Source of the DNA: Bacteriovorax sp. | Lineage (GTDB): Bacteria; Bdellovibrionota; Bacteriovoracia; Bacteriovoracales; Bacteriovoracaceae | DNA length: 64,000 bases | Direction of reading: 5' to 3' | NCBI GenBank assembly: GCA_028710485.1 | Contig: JAQTTZ010000006.1 | Coordinates: 1-64,000 of the forward strand | In this document: in pieces, positions 12,489 to 19,284 of the stretch | How positions within the stretch are numbered: position 1 is the stretch's first letter | Layout: each line of letters opens with the position of its first letter | Notes under the pieces: generated by a model | Told to the model about the DNA's origin: nothing | The model's database searches: none | What the model saw: the letters and a program-made list of their open reading frames with translations, nothing else | Program-made: the position numbers and the translations under genes

Positions 12489-12860
12489 ATGAGCATGAGC
12501 GACATTCGAATCATTAAACGTTACCAAAACAGAAAACTTTATGACACTCACCAGAGCTGTTATGTGACTCTAGAAGAGATCGCACAAATCGTTCGTGAAG
12601 GTAACGAAATCCAAGTTATCGACAATAAAACTAAAAACGACATTACTTACATTACTCAAATCCAACTTCTATTTGATCAAGAGAAAAAATCAACGAGAGT
12701 CGGAGATGTTGAACTTCTTAAGCGAGTTATTCGCTCTGAAGAAGGAACTTTTACTGGTTATATCAAGTCTCTTGAAAAGAAACTTGGTGGCGAAGTAGCT
12801 GCTCCTTTCATGGCAAATGAAAATAACTCTGCTATTGAAACTACAACTACTTTAAACTAA
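12489..12860 (+). CDS. PhaR-like polyhydroxyalkanoate regulator (DNA-binding domain only)
   Basis: A 123-residue protein. Residues 5-68 match the PHB/PHA accumulation regulator DNA-binding domain: IIKRYQNRKLYDTHQSCYVT, then LEEIAQIVREGNEIQVID and KNDITYITQIQLLFDQE. Typical PhaR proteins carry additional C-terminal PHB_acc domains that bind granules; here only a short tail of about 50 residues follows. No PHA synthase or phasin gene is in the window. It probably binds DNA, but the link to PHA is only by family. The AGGGGA ribosome site is well placed. Confidence 0.85.
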   Translation: MSMSDIRIIKRYQNRKLYDTHQSCYVTLEEIAQIVREGNEIQVIDNKTKNDITYITQIQLLFDQEKKSTRVGDVELLKRVIRSEEGTFTGYIKSLEKKLGGEVAAPFMANENNSAIETTTTLN

Positions 12861-12899: not shown

Positions 12900-13583
12900 A
12901 TGCTTAATCAAATTTTAAAAATAGTTCTATTTACGCCCGTCTTAATGGCGGGTGTATCTTTCTCTCCTCAAGCTCTTTCAGAAGAAAAGCAAGTCAAACC
13001 AAACATTCACCTGCTAACGAACGACAAAACATCTCAAAAAGCCAATATTGGTGCCACATCAGATTCCAATGAAAGAATCCCTGGTGAAATCCATAAGCAT
13101 TCCCTTGGAATTGGTGTTGGCCAGACATTTCTTCGCTCTGACCTTGGAGACAATGGAAATGATAAGATTACGGCCGATCTTTATTATAATTATTCAGCAA
13201 GCTACTCATTTGATTTCGTCGCCAATGCTCATTACTCCGAGCACACTTACCTAAATCGCCAATCAACAATCAGAGGCCTTGTCCTCGCGATCAAAGGGAA
13301 AGGATTTCAATTCGATGCCTTCTCTCCATTTGTTTTAGGTGGATTGGGATTTTATCTTCCAAGTGCAAGCCGAATTCAAAATAACGTGCCGACTGAAACG
13401 CGAAAGCAGTTAGTCTTTGGGGTTAATGTTGGAGCAGGAGTTGAATTGCGATTAAATAGCGATGTTACTGTCGGTGTAATCCTTCACTACCATGACCCCT
13501 TTGATGTTCGACAAGACTCAGGACCTAAACTCGAAGGTTCTTATATGAAACTATTAATCCTTGCTTCTTACACATTCAACTAA
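12900..13583 (+). CDS. Outer-membrane beta-barrel protein
   Basis: A 227-residue exported protein with a signal peptide (residues 1-27, ending PQALS). A short linker is followed by alternating amphipathic beta-strands typical of the OmpW/OMP_b-brl group (GIGVGQTFLRSDLG, YNYSASYSFDFVANAHY, FDAFSPFVLGGLGFY, VGAGVELRLNSDVTVGV). It ends in a terminal strand with aromatic residues at the end (LILASYTFN), the usual BAM targeting signal. It lies 10 bases upstream of the ATPase pair, so co-transcription is likely, though a functional link is not evident. Confidence 0.8.
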   Translation: MLNQILKIVLFTPVLMAGVSFSPQALSEEKQVKPNIHLLTNDKTSQKANIGATSDSNERIPGEIHKHSLGIGVGQTFLRSDLGDNGNDKITADLYYNYSASYSFDFVANAHYSEHTYLNRQSTIRGLVLAIKGKGFQFDAFSPFVLGGLGFYLPSASRIQNNVPTETRKQLVFGVNVGAGVELRLNSDVTVGVILHYHDPFDVRQDSGPKLEGSYMKLLILASYTFN

Positions 13584-13593
13584 CAGGTAATCT

Positions 13594-14397
13594 ATGCCAT
13601 TAGCGCATCACCGACTTTATATTATTACCGGTAAAGGTGGCGTGGGAAAAACCACAATAGCAATGGCCTTTACCAAATATCTTCAAAAACAAGGTGTGAA
13701 TGTTAAGTACAATTGCTTTCATCAGCACCCTGAGATTGCTTTAGAAAAAAAGTTAAACCTCCCTACTATTGAAATGAGCATTGAGGCCAGTGCAGAAATT
13801 TATATCGGCAGAAAACTCAACTCAACCACCATCGCTTCATGGATTATGAAAACTCATTTTTTTAAGTCTCTTTTCCAAATGATCCCGGGCCTTGGGCATA
13901 TGATTCTTTTAGGTCATTTGATTTCAGAACTAAATCTTGATCCAAGTCTGGTTATCGTTTTAGACTCGCCGGCTTCAGGACATGCTCTTACCATGTTTGA
14001 ATCTACTTCGAACTTCAAAGCAATTTTTAACACCGGCCTAGTCGTTAAAGACATAGACATAATGCAAACCTTTTTGAAGGGTCCAAATAATTTAAAAACT
14101 CATGTTGTCACGCTCGCAACAGAACTTTCCCTTTCAGAAGCTCAAGATTTAAAAAATGAACTTGATAATAACCTTCCGGATACTGAAGCTCACTGCGATT
14201 TAGTGGTCAATGATAGCTTTAAGAAATTTTTTGAATATCATCATGTCGATGAAAGTTTACTGCCTCCATTTTTAACTCAGAAAGTTGCCTTAGAAGAACA
14301 GATTGTGAAAAGGTATTTGTCACTACCACATATCGACAAAGATAACGTGGTCGATATTGTGATGGATTTATCACTCTTGGTGGAGGGATTAGTATGA
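13594..14397 (+). CDS. ArsA/Get3-like ATPase, subunit A
   Basis: A 267-residue P-loop ATPase of the ArsA/Get3 (SIMIBI) class. The deviant Walker A is GKGGVGKTT (residues 13-21) and retains the signature lysine that reaches across the dimer. A DSPASGHAL block matches the switch II region (DTAPTGHTLR) of ArsA/Get3. The switch I aspartate-proline motif (DPA) is not recognisable; that position reads NCFHQHPE. It overlaps the following ATPase by four bases (ATGA), implying a stoichiometric pair. ArsA pumps arsenite and Get3 targets tail-anchored proteins; no ArsB, ArsR or arsenate reductase is nearby, so arsenic resistance is not supported. Confidence 0.85.
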   Translation: MPLAHHRLYIITGKGGVGKTTIAMAFTKYLQKQGVNVKYNCFHQHPEIALEKKLNLPTIEMSIEASAEIYIGRKLNSTTIASWIMKTHFFKSLFQMIPGLGHMILLGHLISELNLDPSLVIVLDSPASGHALTMFESTSNFKAIFNTGLVVKDIDIMQTFLKGPNNLKTHVVTLATELSLSEAQDLKNELDNNLPDTEAHCDLVVNDSFKKFFEYHHVDESLLPPFLTQKVALEEQIVKRYLSLPHIDKDNVVDIVMDLSLLVEGLV

Positions 14398-15449
14398 AAA
14401 TTCCTTTAAAAAAAGTTGAGATATTTTGTGGTACTGGAGGGGTTGGTAAAACGACCATCGCTACCGCCCGCGCGCTGACACTGGCATTAGAAGACAAAAA
14501 AGTGTTACTGATCACCATTGACCCGGCCAAGCGATTAAAGCAAATTTTAAACATGAAAGATAATGATGATGGAATGATTAATACCATTTCACTTGATCTT
14601 TTTGGTTACGAAAAAGAAAAATCCTTTGATGCGATGCTGATGTCTCCAAGGGCTACTTTGCAGAAAATGGCTGCAGAAAAAAATCTGCATGCTGAATTTG
14701 ATTCGACCATTATAAAAACACTTTCACGTCCCTACGGGGGAATGAATGAGATCATGTCAATTATTGAAGTTCAAACACAACTTGAGAAAAACTATTACGA
14801 TACCATTATTCTTGATACTCCTCCCGGAAAACACTTTATCGACTTTCTAGAATCGTCAGAAAAAATTAAAAACTTTTTCGATAAATCTTTTTTAGAAATT
14901 TTTGAATATCTTGGAAAAAATATCACTGGTGGCGGCAAGGCACGCAATTTTATCACCATGATCGTTTCAACCGGAGTGAAAAAGCTTTTGAGTTATCTCG
15001 AAGCTGTAACAGGTGCGGATTTCGTTCGAGAATTTATCGAGGCGGTACTGGCGCTCTATAAATGTCGGGAATCTTTTTTAAATGCCCTGAAATTTCAACA
15101 AGAACTAAAAAAATCAAGTTTTTCTAATTGGTTTTTGGTTACCTCTGTCGAACAACAAAAAATGACCGAAGCCCAGGATATGAAACTTCAAGCTGTGAAT
15201 TTTATGCATAAAGATCTTTTTCTGGTTATGAACAAATGCCTTAGTAACTTTTTGAATGACTGGGATCCAGGAAAAAATGATGCCTTAATTAACCTGAAAA
15301 AATCAATGACTAAACGCGAACAAGATCTCCAAGACTTTGCTAGCAATAATTTTTCAAACGTATTAAAATTTCATGAAATTAATCATCCTTCTCCACTTGA
15401 GCACGTTAAAGGATTGGCTCAAATGTTTTTGGTTCAATCTAAGCAGTAA
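14394..15449 (+). CDS. ArsA/Get3-like ATPase, subunit B
   Basis: A 351-residue relative of subunit A. Its P-loop reads GTGGVGKTT (residues 13-21), so the signature lysine is replaced by threonine, while switch I is intact (TIDPAKRLKQIL, 41-52) and a switch II-like DTPPGKHFIDFL is present. The losses in A and B are therefore complementary, suggesting an obligate heterodimer (inference). The middle region (about 150-250) is helical and hydrophobic, where Get3 binds clients. Eight bases later comes gshA. The exact substrate is unknown. Confidence 0.87.
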   Translation: MKIPLKKVEIFCGTGGVGKTTIATARALTLALEDKKVLLITIDPAKRLKQILNMKDNDDGMINTISLDLFGYEKEKSFDAMLMSPRATLQKMAAEKNLHAEFDSTIIKTLSRPYGGMNEIMSIIEVQTQLEKNYYDTIILDTPPGKHFIDFLESSEKIKNFFDKSFLEIFEYLGKNITGGGKARNFITMIVSTGVKKLLSYLEAVTGADFVREFIEAVLALYKCRESFLNALKFQQELKKSSFSNWFLVTSVEQQKMTEAQDMKLQAVNFMHKDLFLVMNKCLSNFLNDWDPGKNDALINLKKSMTKREQDLQDFASNNFSNVLKFHEINHPSPLEHVKGLAQMFLVQSKQ

Positions 15450-15456
15450 GGACGCC

Positions 15457-16677
15457 ATGGAATTTAAAATTAACAATAAAGATCAGCTAGAACAATTTGT
15501 TTGTGAAAACTGGGATAAGATAAATGCCTATATTGCACAATTGCAAATTGGTTTACCTGTTCCCTTTTATTCGAGTGTCGATATTCGCGAAAGCCGTGAG
15601 AAGTATGCACCGGTCGATCATAATATGTACCCCGCAGGATTTAACAATCTTTGCAGTGTCGATATTCGGAATGCCACTAGCTTGGTACGCGATACGCTTA
15701 AAAAAATAAATTCTGAAGCTCGCAATGTAGGAATTATTCCTGAGTCGCATACTAAAAATTTAATGTACCTCGATCATCTCGCGACTCTCGCCAAACTTAT
15801 TACAGATGCAGGCTATAGAACATCTTTCGTGAGTTTTGACTCTGCTCTTTTTCCTGACAACGAAGACTTTATTGATCTGGTTTCAGCTTCAGGGAGTCCT
15901 ATTAAAATTGTTCGAGGACAGATTCAAAATGGAGCTATCTTCGCACTTGGTGAGAAGATGGATGTGGCCATCAATAATAATGACCAGTCTAATCCCTGGC
16001 CAATTGAATGGAGAGAAATTACAACTCCAATCGCTCCGACTCCATTAATCGGTTGGTTTAGACGACAAAAAAATACACATTTTTCTTATTATAAAAAAGT
16101 CGCCGATGAATTTGCCAACCATTTTGAAATAAATCCAGATTTGATCCAAGCTCAGTTTCGCGCGGTAGAAGATGTAGACTTCGAGACAAAACATGGATTA
16201 GAAAAATTAGGAAATGCTGTTGATGAAGTCATTTCAAACCTAAAACCAGGTTCAAAAGTTTTTGTAAAAGCCTCACAAGGCACTTATGGGATGGGGATCA
16301 GTGTCGTGTCTTCTGGTGAAGAAATTATCAACATGAATCGCAAAACCAGAAATAAGATGGATGTAGGTAAGAACAAAATTAAATTTACATCTCTACTTGT
16401 TCAAGAAGGTGTAGAGACCATTATTAAATACGATAATAATCCAGCAGAAATTACAGTCTATTTAATCGATGGAAAAAGTATGGGGGGCTTCATGAGAATC
16501 AATGCTGAAAAAGACAGCCTTGCAAATCTCAATAGCCGCGGAATGGTTTTTAGGAAATTATGCATGAGTGATCTGGTAAGTACGGTAGAAGACCACAAAT
16601 CAAAAGATGCAATCTACTCAATCATCGCAAGACTTGCGACGGTTGCTGCAGCTTACGAAATTAAAGAAGTTTTATAA
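15457..16677 (+). CDS. gshA: Glutamate-cysteine ligase (proteobacterial/Acidithiobacillus type)
   Basis: A 406-residue enzyme that joins glutamate and cysteine to gamma-glutamylcysteine, the first step of glutathione synthesis. The sequence carries blocks of the gshA type described from Acidithiobacillus ferrooxidans: PFYSSVDIRESREKYAPVDH, NMYPAGFNNLC, FVKASQGTYGMGISVV and the late ATP-binding segment ITVYLIDGKSMGGFMRIN. An AAGGA ribosome site precedes the ATG; a longer in-frame start exists inside the previous gene but lacks support. It lies directly upstream of the transsulfuration genes that make its cysteine substrate. No gshB is visible in the window. Confidence 0.9.
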   Translation: MEFKINNKDQLEQFVCENWDKINAYIAQLQIGLPVPFYSSVDIRESREKYAPVDHNMYPAGFNNLCSVDIRNATSLVRDTLKKINSEARNVGIIPESHTKNLMYLDHLATLAKLITDAGYRTSFVSFDSALFPDNEDFIDLVSASGSPIKIVRGQIQNGAIFALGEKMDVAINNNDQSNPWPIEWREITTPIAPTPLIGWFRRQKNTHFSYYKKVADEFANHFEINPDLIQAQFRAVEDVDFETKHGLEKLGNAVDEVISNLKPGSKVFVKASQGTYGMGISVVSSGEEIINMNRKTRNKMDVGKNKIKFTSLLVQEGVETIIKYDNNPAEITVYLIDGKSMGGFMRINAEKDSLANLNSRGMVFRKLCMSDLVSTVEDHKSKDAIYSIIARLATVAAAYEIKEVL

Positions 16678-16702
16678 CAGTTATTTTTTAAGGAGAATAT
16701 AT

Positions 16703-18085
16703 ATGATGAAAGGAGCTAAGAAAAATATCTTAGATGCCATCGGTAACACGCCAATCGTAAAGCTTAATAAAGTTACAACCGGTGTTGAATCTGAAATTTA
16801 TGTAAAACTAGAATTCATGAACCCAGGTGGATCAAGCAAAGACCGCATTGGTGGATATATCATGGACAGAGCAGTGGCATCGGGCAAACTTAAGCCAGGT
16901 GGAACCATTATCGAAGGGACTTCTGGGAACACCGGTGTGGGTTTAGCGATGTGGGCAGCTGTTAATGGATACAAATGTGTATTTGTTATGGCCGATAAAC
17001 AATCAGTTGAAAAAGTAAATAACTTGAAAGCCTTTGGGGCCAAAGTCGTTGTGTGCCCAACCGATGTTGAGCCGGAAGACCCTCGTTCTTATTATTCAGT
17101 TTCAAAAAGATTAGCAGAAACAATTCCGAATTCGTATTACGTTAATCAGTACGACAATCTTTGGAACCGCGAAACTCATATCGCGACAACGGGACCTGAA
17201 ATCTTTGAACAAACCCAGGGAGATTTCGATGTATTTATGGCAGGAGTTGGTACAGGTGGAACAATCTCAGGTATTTCTTCTTATTTAAAAACAAAAATGC
17301 CAAAACTAATTACAGTTGGTGTTGATGTTGAAGGTTCTATCGTTGCTCAATTTGCCCGCACAGGGGACTTAAGTGGAGCACGCTCTTATGTTATCGAAGG
17401 AATCGGGGAAGATTTTATTCCTGAGAATTATGATTTCAAAGTTATCGATGACTGGGTTGTGGTTGGCGATAAAGAATCTTTTTTGATGACTCGCGCACTT
17501 CTAAAACAAGAAGGAATTTACACCGGCGGATCTGGTGGAGCTGCTGTAGTCGGAGCGATTAAATACGCGACGACGCTAAAGGAACCGAAAAAAATTCTGG
17601 TTATTCTTCCTGATTCGGGAAATAGATATGCCTCAAAAATCTTCAATGATGAGTGGATGATGAGCAAGGGTTATATCGCTTCTTCGTTTAATGTAATTAT
17701 TAAAGATCTTTTGAGTGATCTTGAAAAAAAGAATGATCAGGTTATTTCAATTACGGATCACGCCAATATTGGTGATGCTATTAAACTGATGGAGCAAAAA
17801 AGTGTTTCTCAACTTCCTGTCGTAAGTGATGGAATAATTAAAGGTGTTTTAAGTGAAAATGCTCTTCTAAAACCTCTTTTCAATGGCGAGTACCATTTAA
17901 GTGATTCGGTTTCTCTGGCCTATACAGATAAATACAGAACCGTCGATATTAACGATCTTCTTTCAAACGTAGCTGACTCTCTTCTAAAAAAAGAGGTTGT
18001 TCTTGTTACTGAAAAAGGAAAAATCGTTAATCTTTTATCAAATATCGATATCCTTAACTATATTTCCAAGAGAGAAAGTATATGA
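16703..18085 (+). CDS. Cystathionine beta-synthase (PLP enzyme with CBS domain pair)
   Basis: A 460-residue enzyme that condenses serine and homocysteine to cystathionine. The N-terminal fold type II PLP core has the lysine motif GGSSKDRIG (Lys46), the substrate loop EGTSGNTGVGLA, and the phosphate-binding GVGTGGTISG. Residues about 345-460 form two CBS domains (ITDHANIGDAIKLMEQKSVSQLP and a second ending NIDILNYI), usual for cystathionine beta-synthase and rare in CysK. AAGGAG lies seven bases upstream of the ATG at 16703. It overlaps the cystathionine lyase gene by four bases, supporting reverse transsulfuration. Confidence 0.93.
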   Translation: MMKGAKKNILDAIGNTPIVKLNKVTTGVESEIYVKLEFMNPGGSSKDRIGGYIMDRAVASGKLKPGGTIIEGTSGNTGVGLAMWAAVNGYKCVFVMADKQSVEKVNNLKAFGAKVVVCPTDVEPEDPRSYYSVSKRLAETIPNSYYVNQYDNLWNRETHIATTGPEIFEQTQGDFDVFMAGVGTGGTISGISSYLKTKMPKLITVGVDVEGSIVAQFARTGDLSGARSYVIEGIGEDFIPENYDFKVIDDWVVVGDKESFLMTRALLKQEGIYTGGSGGAAVVGAIKYATTLKEPKKILVILPDSGNRYASKIFNDEWMMSKGYIASSFNVIIKDLLSDLEKKNDQVISITDHANIGDAIKLMEQKSVSQLPVVSDGIIKGVLSENALLKPLFNGEYHLSDSVSLAYTDKYRTVDINDLLSNVADSLLKKEVVLVTEKGKIVNLLSNIDILNYISKRESI

Positions 18086-19284
18086 GTAAAAAAATTACTA
18101 AAAAAGCTACAACAAAAACTACGGCAAAAAAAAGTACGCATGATTTTGCAACCAGAGTTATTCACGTTGGCGGTGAACCAGATAAAGAAACAGGTGCGAT
18201 CATGCCTCCTATTTATCAAACTTCAACATATGTACAAGAGTCCCCTGGAGTTCATAAAGGTTATGAATACACACGATCGCATAATCCAACCAGAACTCGC
18301 TTACAAGAATGTCTGGCTTCTCTTGAACAAGCAAAGCATTGCCTCGTGACAGCGTCAGGACTTTCAGCTGAAATGTTAATAATGCATCTTCTACCTGCAG
18401 GATCTAATATTATTTGCGGAGATGATGTTTACGGAGGAACTTATCGTTTATTCACGACAGTTTTCCACAAAATGCACAATTTCAAATTTATCGATACTAC
18501 CGATGCTAAAGTAGTAGAAAAGACAGTGAAGGAATTTAAGCCTGCACTTATTTGGCTTGAGACTCCAACTAATCCACTTTTAAAAATCACGGACATTGTT
18601 GCTGTCACTGCAATTGCTAAAAAAGCAAAAGCACTTACAGTCGTTGACAATACTTTCATGAGTCCTTATTTTCAAAACCCAATTGTTTTAGGCGCAGATA
18701 TCGCTCTTCACTCAATGACTAAATATTTAAATGGTCACAGTGATGTAGTTGGTGGATGTATCATGATGAACGATGATTTAATGCATAAGCAATTATTTAC
18801 TCTTCAAAATTCAATTGGCCCTTGCCACTCTCCTTTTGATTCTTGGTTGGTTCTTCGCGGCTTAAAAACTTTAGCAATCAGAATGGAAGCTCATCAAAAG
18901 AATGCAATGGTCGTAGCTCAATACCTGGAAAAACATCCTAAAGTTGAACGTGTTGTTTATCCTGGTTTAAAATCACATCCACAACATGCTATCGCTAAAA
19001 AACAAATGTTAGGCTACGGTGGAATGATCACTTTCTTTTTAAAAGGTGATATTAAAAAATCAAATAAATTCCTTTCAACAGTAAAACTTTTTGCTCTTGC
19101 TGAAAGCCTTGGTGGTGTTGAAAGTTTAATTGAGCATCCGGCAATTATGACTCATGCTTCGATTCCTAAACCAATAAGAGAAAAATTAGGGATTACTGAT
19201 AATCTTATTCGTTTGTCAGTGGGAATTGAAAACGTAGATGATTTACTTGATGATTTGGAAATGGGATTTAGTGCTATTAAATAG
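18082..19284 (+). CDS. Cystathionine gamma-lyase/gamma-synthase family PLP enzyme
   Basis: A 400-residue fold type I PLP enzyme of the Cys/Met metabolism family. The Schiff-base lysine is Lys214 in HSMTKYLNGHSDVVGG; other hallmarks are YEYTRSHNPTR and WLETPTNPLLKI. Coupling (ATGA overlap) to cystathionine beta-synthase favours gamma-lyase activity, cleaving cystathionine to cysteine, over gamma-synthase. The first 20 residues are an unusual K/T-rich, charged tail (MSKKITKKATTKTTAKKS) not part of the fold. A hairpin terminator follows, closing the thiol operon. Confidence 0.93.
   Translation: MSKKITKKATTKTTAKKSTHDFATRVIHVGGEPDKETGAIMPPIYQTSTYVQESPGVHKGYEYTRSHNPTRTRLQECLASLEQAKHCLVTASGLSAEMLIMHLLPAGSNIICGDDVYGGTYRLFTTVFHKMHNFKFIDTTDAKVVEKTVKEFKPALIWLETPTNPLLKITDIVAVTAIAKKAKALTVVDNTFMSPYFQNPIVLGADIALHSMTKYLNGHSDVVGGCIMMNDDLMHKQLFTLQNSIGPCHSPFDSWLVLRGLKTLAIRMEAHQKNAMVVAQYLEKHPKVERVVYPGLKSHPQHAIAKKQMLGYGGMITFFLKGDIKKSNKFLSTVKLFALAESLGGVESLIEHPAIMTHASIPKPIREKLGITDNLIRLSVGIENVDDLLDDLEMGFSAIK

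Follow-up and report, generated by a model that had tools for sequence, protein, structure and literature searches.

Two adjacent genes in a 64,000-nucleotide stretch of Bacteriovorax sp. DNA (hereafter, the window) probably encode the halves of a BagAB-type asymmetric heterodimer, in which subunit B would hold the one complete ATP site, finished by a lysine contributed by subunit A, and the site of A itself would be crippled; this reading is assigned a probability of about 0.83. Judged on sequence, the pair belongs to the known BagA/BagB type, and its design is not new. What appears to be new is the spread and strictness of the rule by which the motifs are divided between the two subunits in the Bdellovibrionota, the decay of the A site, a natural A-B fusion and a link to gshA. 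The design with one good site would then be an old and strictly kept rule rather than a mycobacterial oddity, one site having been free to decay, through replacement of its Walker lysine by arginine mostly within a single clade, while no loss is seen of the lysine that A would supply to B.

The gene pair and its motifs

The features of the locus are collected in Table 1. An earlier note on this DNA had described a subunit A with the P-loop GKGGVGKTT and no switch I DPA, a subunit B in which the signature lysine is replaced by threonine (GTGGVGKTT) and the DPA is kept, and an overlap of four bases between their genes. All of this is borne out on the two open reading frames, the shared bases being the ATGA at 14394-14397. 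When the subunits are aligned, the stretch of A corresponding to switch I is YNCFHQHPE, which sets His43 of A against Asp43 of B. Both proteins exceed the gathering score of the ArsA_ATPase family PF02374 (24.3 bits), A scoring 37.7 and B 83.5 bits.

Table 1. Features of the A-B locus, with positions in the window
Feature	Position	Strand	Basis or conservation
PhaR-type regulator (PF07879), upstream neighbour	12489-12860	+	Pfam; 41/41 family loci
Putative outer-membrane beta-barrel protein	12900-13583	+	OMP_b-brl E 2.9e-4, below gathering score
Subunit A, BagA-like Get3/ArsA-fold ATPase, 267 aa, ATG start	13594-14397	+	ORF, Pfam, AlphaFold2 model
A P-loop GKGGVGKTT, residues 13-21, signature Lys14 (codon 13633-13635)	13630-13656	+	
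Degenerate switch I of A (CFHQHPE), without DPA	13714-13734	+	
A switch II DSPASGH	13963-13983	+	Asp in 84/84 A
Subunit B, BagB-like Get3/ArsA-fold ATPase, 351 aa, ATG start	14394-15449	+	ORF, Pfam, profile, model
B P-loop GTGGVGKTT, residues 13-21, Thr14 for signature Lys (codon 14433-14435)	14430-14456	+	
B switch I TIDPAKRLKQIL, residues 41-52, includes TIDPAKRL	14514-14549	+	Asp43, Pro44, Arg47 in 84/84
B switch II DTPPGKH	14814-14834	+	Asp and Thr in 84/84 B
gshA, PF08886-type glutamate-cysteine ligase	15457-16677	+	Pfam E 2.4e-118
Cystathionine beta-synthase-like gene	16700-18085	+	Pfam
Cystathionine gamma-lyase/synthase-like gene	18082-19284	+	Pfam, NCBIfam

Loci and searches

The family of the window was represented by 41 loci (the window and 40 others), and a second set comprised 39 loci, of which 36 were hand-picked from 20 other families and three were further members of the window's family. 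Together with locus L225 and three actinobacterial records from Nonomuraea, Nocardia and Tsukamurella, which constitute the sample from outside the Bdellovibrionota, these make up 84 aligned pairs. A search of the phylum for B gave a match at E <= 1e-12 in 173 of 191 genomes. As exceptions would hide among the weakest B matches, the 26 genomes in which B fell below the matches listed in that search were also searched; with the addition of genome G140, this made 27 genomes. The further loci comprise L229-L258, which account for all but one of the 31 places listed there, together with L226 and L227. L237, the A of L251 and L256, which are pieces with no visible P-loop, were left out of the counts for these further loci, and a fused pair was counted separately.

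The profile used to search for B was built from sequences with threonine at the signature position; it also recovers ArsA halves carrying lysine, and is therefore not blind to that residue. A set of 80 named loci came from a search pattern containing FCGTGGVG and was, for that reason, excluded from the signature counts, 57 of the 80 being used, for alignments A3 and A4 alone. The P-loop appeared to be absent from the A of L033 and from the B of L206 and L212, and these cases were rejected as start-codon artefacts.

Conservation of the divided motifs

In 41/41 loci of the family, A stands immediately before B in the same orientation, and in none of them does B have the signature lysine; it is this combination that makes chance an untenable explanation of the motif pattern. 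The same order and strand recur in 39/39 loci of the second set. Across the aligned pairs, the signature lysine is found in 84/84 A and 0/84 B, being replaced in the latter by threonine (58), serine (17), proline (5), alanine (2), cysteine (1) or glycine (1). Switch I of B has its aspartate, its proline and the arginine four residues on in 84/84 sequences, and the Walker lysine and switch II aspartate of B are likewise kept in 84/84. The Walker lysine of A is present in 82/84, with arginine in the other two. Among the further loci, the A subunits have the signature lysine in 28/28 and the Walker arginine in 11/28, and the B subunits the signature lysine in 0/29 and DP[AS]xR in 29/29, bringing the totals, with the fusion included, to 113/113 and 14/113 for A and to 0/114 and 114/114 for B. 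The co-occurrence of the two losses, which the earlier note had proposed as a test, hence holds in every pair with readable motifs (113 A, 114 B), and, except where they are fused, the two genes lie side by side in every case in which both were recovered intact. As far as these sequences go, the split loss of motifs is a lineage-wide rule.

Switch I of A is less uniform, the column of the aspartate being occupied by aspartate in 25 of the 84 sequences, glutamate in 16, glycine in 14 and other residues in 29. Because aspartate remains in those 25, this switch appears to have been relaxed rather than uniformly changed, and the same 25 subunits count against the main explanation. The description of A as having no DPA stands for the motif, since DP[AS] occurs near switch I in 1/113 A (L218, where it is shifted by one), and fails for the aspartate itself.

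An arginine at the Walker position of A (GKGGxGR), accompanied by a retained signature lysine, was observed at L211, L217, L231, L233, L235, L236, L238, L239, L242, L243, L246, L247, L250 and L258, and the loci concerned belong mostly to one family (f12). Four highly divergent pairs of family f9 (L252-L255) have a short A and a B with G[PS]GGVGKS, and still keep the split.

That A and B form separate homodimers or act as monomers, their motif changes reflecting independent drift in two paralogues, is very improbable. Each model is a complete domain, which speaks in favour of it, yet a homodimer of B would be devoid of any signature lysine while keeping its Walker lysine and both switch aspartates in 84/84 sequences. 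Independent drift also fits poorly with a signature lysine that is invariant in 113/113 A while the Walker lysine and switch I of the same subunit vary, and a natural A-B fusion, along with three PDB entries that hold both Rv3679 and Rv3680, also counts against it.

Relationship to BagAB and ArsA

The best NCBIfam match of A is BagA (E 2.6e-10), and that of B is BagB (E 1.3e-28). These two models are curated for the mycobacterial equivalogs, and the scores of the window proteins fall far below their cut-offs, with 40.3 against 400 for NF053622 (BagA) and 100.1 against 521 for NF053621 (BagB); the pair is consequently described as BagAB-type rather than as the mycobacterial equivalog, and the low scores count against the main explanation. 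In the PDB, B has its best match in 6bs3 chain B (E 3.1e-20; 4.2e-31 by profile), and the profile of A matches chain A of the same entry (E 1.4e-18), although ArsA chains outscore the latter. This entry is entitled 'Crystal structure of ADP-bound bacterial Get3-like A and B in Mycobacterium tuberculosis', and chains of Rv3679 and Rv3680 are both present in the same three entries (6bs3-6bs5).

In the PDB alignments, Rv3679 (BagA) has GKGGTGKS and VEVEGRQG, and Rv3680 (BagB) has CGAGGVGKTT and TIDPAKRL. The M. tuberculosis proteins therefore resemble the window pair in being two Get3-fold proteins with the signature lysine in A only and the switch I DPA in B only, and the pairs of Nonomuraea, Nocardia and Tsukamurella display a split identical in kind. 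Window A is the shorter protein, at 267 aa compared with 340 in the BagA PDB chain. BagAB has reportedly been described by Hu in 2019 and by Whitaker in 2020, and mycobacterial bagAB is said to have a role in tolerance of glycerol and nitric oxide.

In an unrooted tree of 60 rows with long branches, 29 A sequences including three actinobacterial BagA form one group (98/93), and 29 B sequences including three BagB form another (100/98). The ArsA halves fall apart from both groups in this unrooted tree, in which the halves may attract each other. The unrooted, long-branched nature of the tree beneath the A and B groups counts against the main explanation.

The suggestion that the pair is ArsA, the ATPase of the arsenite pump, divided between two genes is barely credible. 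Membership of PF02374 would agree with it, as would the best PDB sequence matches of A, which are ArsA chains aligned in the C-terminal half, and A and B together share with ArsA both the fold and the organisation as a two-domain unit, an A and a B being fused in ArsA style in one genome. However, a 605-aa ArsA (L001, at G000:C173), used as a control, is encoded separately in the same genome, and keeps lysine and DPA in both of its halves. The ArsA arrangement of one chain with two P-loop halves, each with the signature lysine, is not that of the window pair, which is divided between separate genes, and the tree sets A and B apart from ArsA. As the earlier note had remarked, no arsenic gene is nearby, none having been found among 10 neighbourhood proteins scanned; on the grounds of this absence and of the separate ArsA, the arsenite pump was rejected.

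Predicted structures and a possible targeting role

AlphaFold2 monomer models were obtained with a pLDDT of 91.6 for A and 86.0 for B, and each subunit is shown by its model to have the predicted fold of a Get3/ArsA nucleotide-binding domain. The best structural match of the A model is 6bs3_A (Z 21.5, rmsd 3.3, 256 residues aligned), tied with a second match to 3zq6 (Z 20.6). For the B model the best match is 3zq6_B (Z 26.2, rmsd 2.9, 274 aligned), tied with 6bs3_A at Z 25.3, and this tie counts against the main explanation.

It is conceivable, at somewhat less than even odds, that the pair is a targeting factor of the Get3 kind for tail-anchored or amphipathic proteins, to which its asymmetry would be secondary. 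The Get3 fold of both subunits points this way, as do a helical insert in B (147-238, partly of low confidence) that can be read as lying at the place of the client-binding domain, a hydrophobic conserved helix in A around FFKSLFQMIPGLGHMILLGHLI, and the presence of the trigger factor gene in 13 of the 36 loci from other families. The pair shares with Get3/TRC40 the fold of the models and the intradimeric logic of Walker A, but differs in comprising two unlike subunits arranged asymmetrically, with no signature lysine in B. Neither window A nor window B has the zinc-binding CXXC of the Get3/TRC40 dimer interface, and any CXXC is found in just 3/84 A and 2/84 B. Likewise the scores against TIGR00345 (Get3/TRC40) are 21.2 for A and 78.8 for B, below the cut-off of 135. 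A targeting role of this kind would be compatible with the BagAB-type heterodimer rather than exclusive of it.

A proposed single composite active site

In the literature (PMC10248533), the second lysine of GKGGhGK is described as crossing the dimer to stabilise active-site charge, and placement of the attacking water in cytoplasmic Get3 is ascribed to the aspartate of switch I. In a BagAB-type heterodimer, ATP in the P-loop of B would meet Asp43 in switch I of B, which would position the water, and Lys14 of A would reach across to join Asp43 and the Walker lysine of B, thereby making one complete site. Since the site of A is without a partner lysine, without a conserved switch I and sometimes without its own Walker lysine, it would at most bind nucleotide, in a structural or regulatory role. 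As in Get3 and ArsA, the dimer would close and reopen at the cost of a single ATP in each cycle, and would thereby capture and release a client.

An invariant Lys14 in A, beside a drifting Walker lysine and switch I, is what would be predicted of a lysine serving the partner, and the lysine of A probably does serve the site of B. The earlier inference of an obligate heterodimer with one composite active site is well supported by these comparisons. Its portrayal of the losses as complementary has to be amended, as the A site appears to be crippled twice and the B site complete only with the lysine of A, such that the losses are concordant, both falling on the one site whose nucleotide A holds.

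Gene neighbourhood and the link to gshA

In the window, the putative outer-membrane gene ends 10 bases before A, and gshA begins 7 bases after B. A PhaR gene, followed by a gene for a putative outer-membrane barrel, precedes A-B in 41/41 family loci. Both gshA and the transsulfuration genes mentioned in the earlier note are indeed found downstream, and gshA, the gene for the first step in making glutathione, emerges as a phylum-wide conserved neighbour instead of an incidental one. The PF08886 type of gshA is present in 146 of 191 Bdellovibrionota genomes; among the B matches listed, which cover 147 of the 173 genomes and so leave the other 26 outside this count, it follows B within 6 kb and in the same orientation in 110 of the 120 genomes with both genes (32/32 in the family and 78/88 outside it). 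The link is not strict, as there are genomes with B and no gshA (G130 and G138) and others with gshA and no B (G032, G092, G094 and G252).

The neighbours of the 36 loci outside the family include gshA at 27, a TPR protein at 21, trigger factor at 13 (in the range L182-L218) and an EI24/CysZ-like protein at 11. The Tsukamurella locus differs from that of the window, where gshA, and within the family PhaR, are the neighbours, in having WhiB, Crp, MBL and transglycosylase genes. No paper on ArsA/Get3 or on gshA/ArsA in Bdellovibrio was found among the open-licence papers searched.

The conserved position before gshA, taken with the role in glycerol and nitric oxide tolerance reported for mycobacterial bagAB, hints weakly at a task for the pair in stress or thiol homeostasis. 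A bolder and rather unlikely proposal is that BagAB of the Bdellovibrionota is a part of low-molecular-weight thiol metabolism, inherited jointly with an uncommon type of gshA, that it would be concerned with other thiols in other phyla, and that it represents a Get3-fold machine with a single ATP site which is not devoted to tail-anchored proteins. If true, a thiol role in other phyla would account for the mycobacterial phenotypes with glycerol and nitric oxide. The tie to gshA offers a genetic hint, from outside the actinobacteria, of the purpose that a BagAB pair might have, and Bdellovibrio or Halobacteriovorax would lend themselves to a test of it.

Fused, duplicated and degenerate copies

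The natural A-B fusion is found at L231 (G246:C24, 89-2617 on the minus strand), as one frame that is open at the upstream end of its stretch. Its A half has GKGGVGRS and is without DPA, and is joined by a linker rich in proline and alanine to a B half with GAGGVGKTT and TIDPSKRL. Such a fusion would provide a ready single chain for structural and ATPase work. The same genome has, besides the fusion, a split copy (L258) and a piece of B (L256). An apparent frame of 701 aa in G230 was rejected as an A-B fusion, its A and B not being read in one and the same frame.

Some genomes have two copies of A-B, as seen with L215/L216 in G220, L217/L218 in G240 and L231/L258 in G246; in G220 and G240, gshA accompanies one of the two copies only. 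Of 29 genomes with no B or a weak one, 23 gave no match to A at 1e-6. The remaining six with an A match are G083 and G054, where it is weak, G111, where it is at a contig end, G065, where it is a 98-residue piece, G253 and G041. In the last of these, an A-like sequence with four stops (C56:748-1344) is perhaps a decaying copy.
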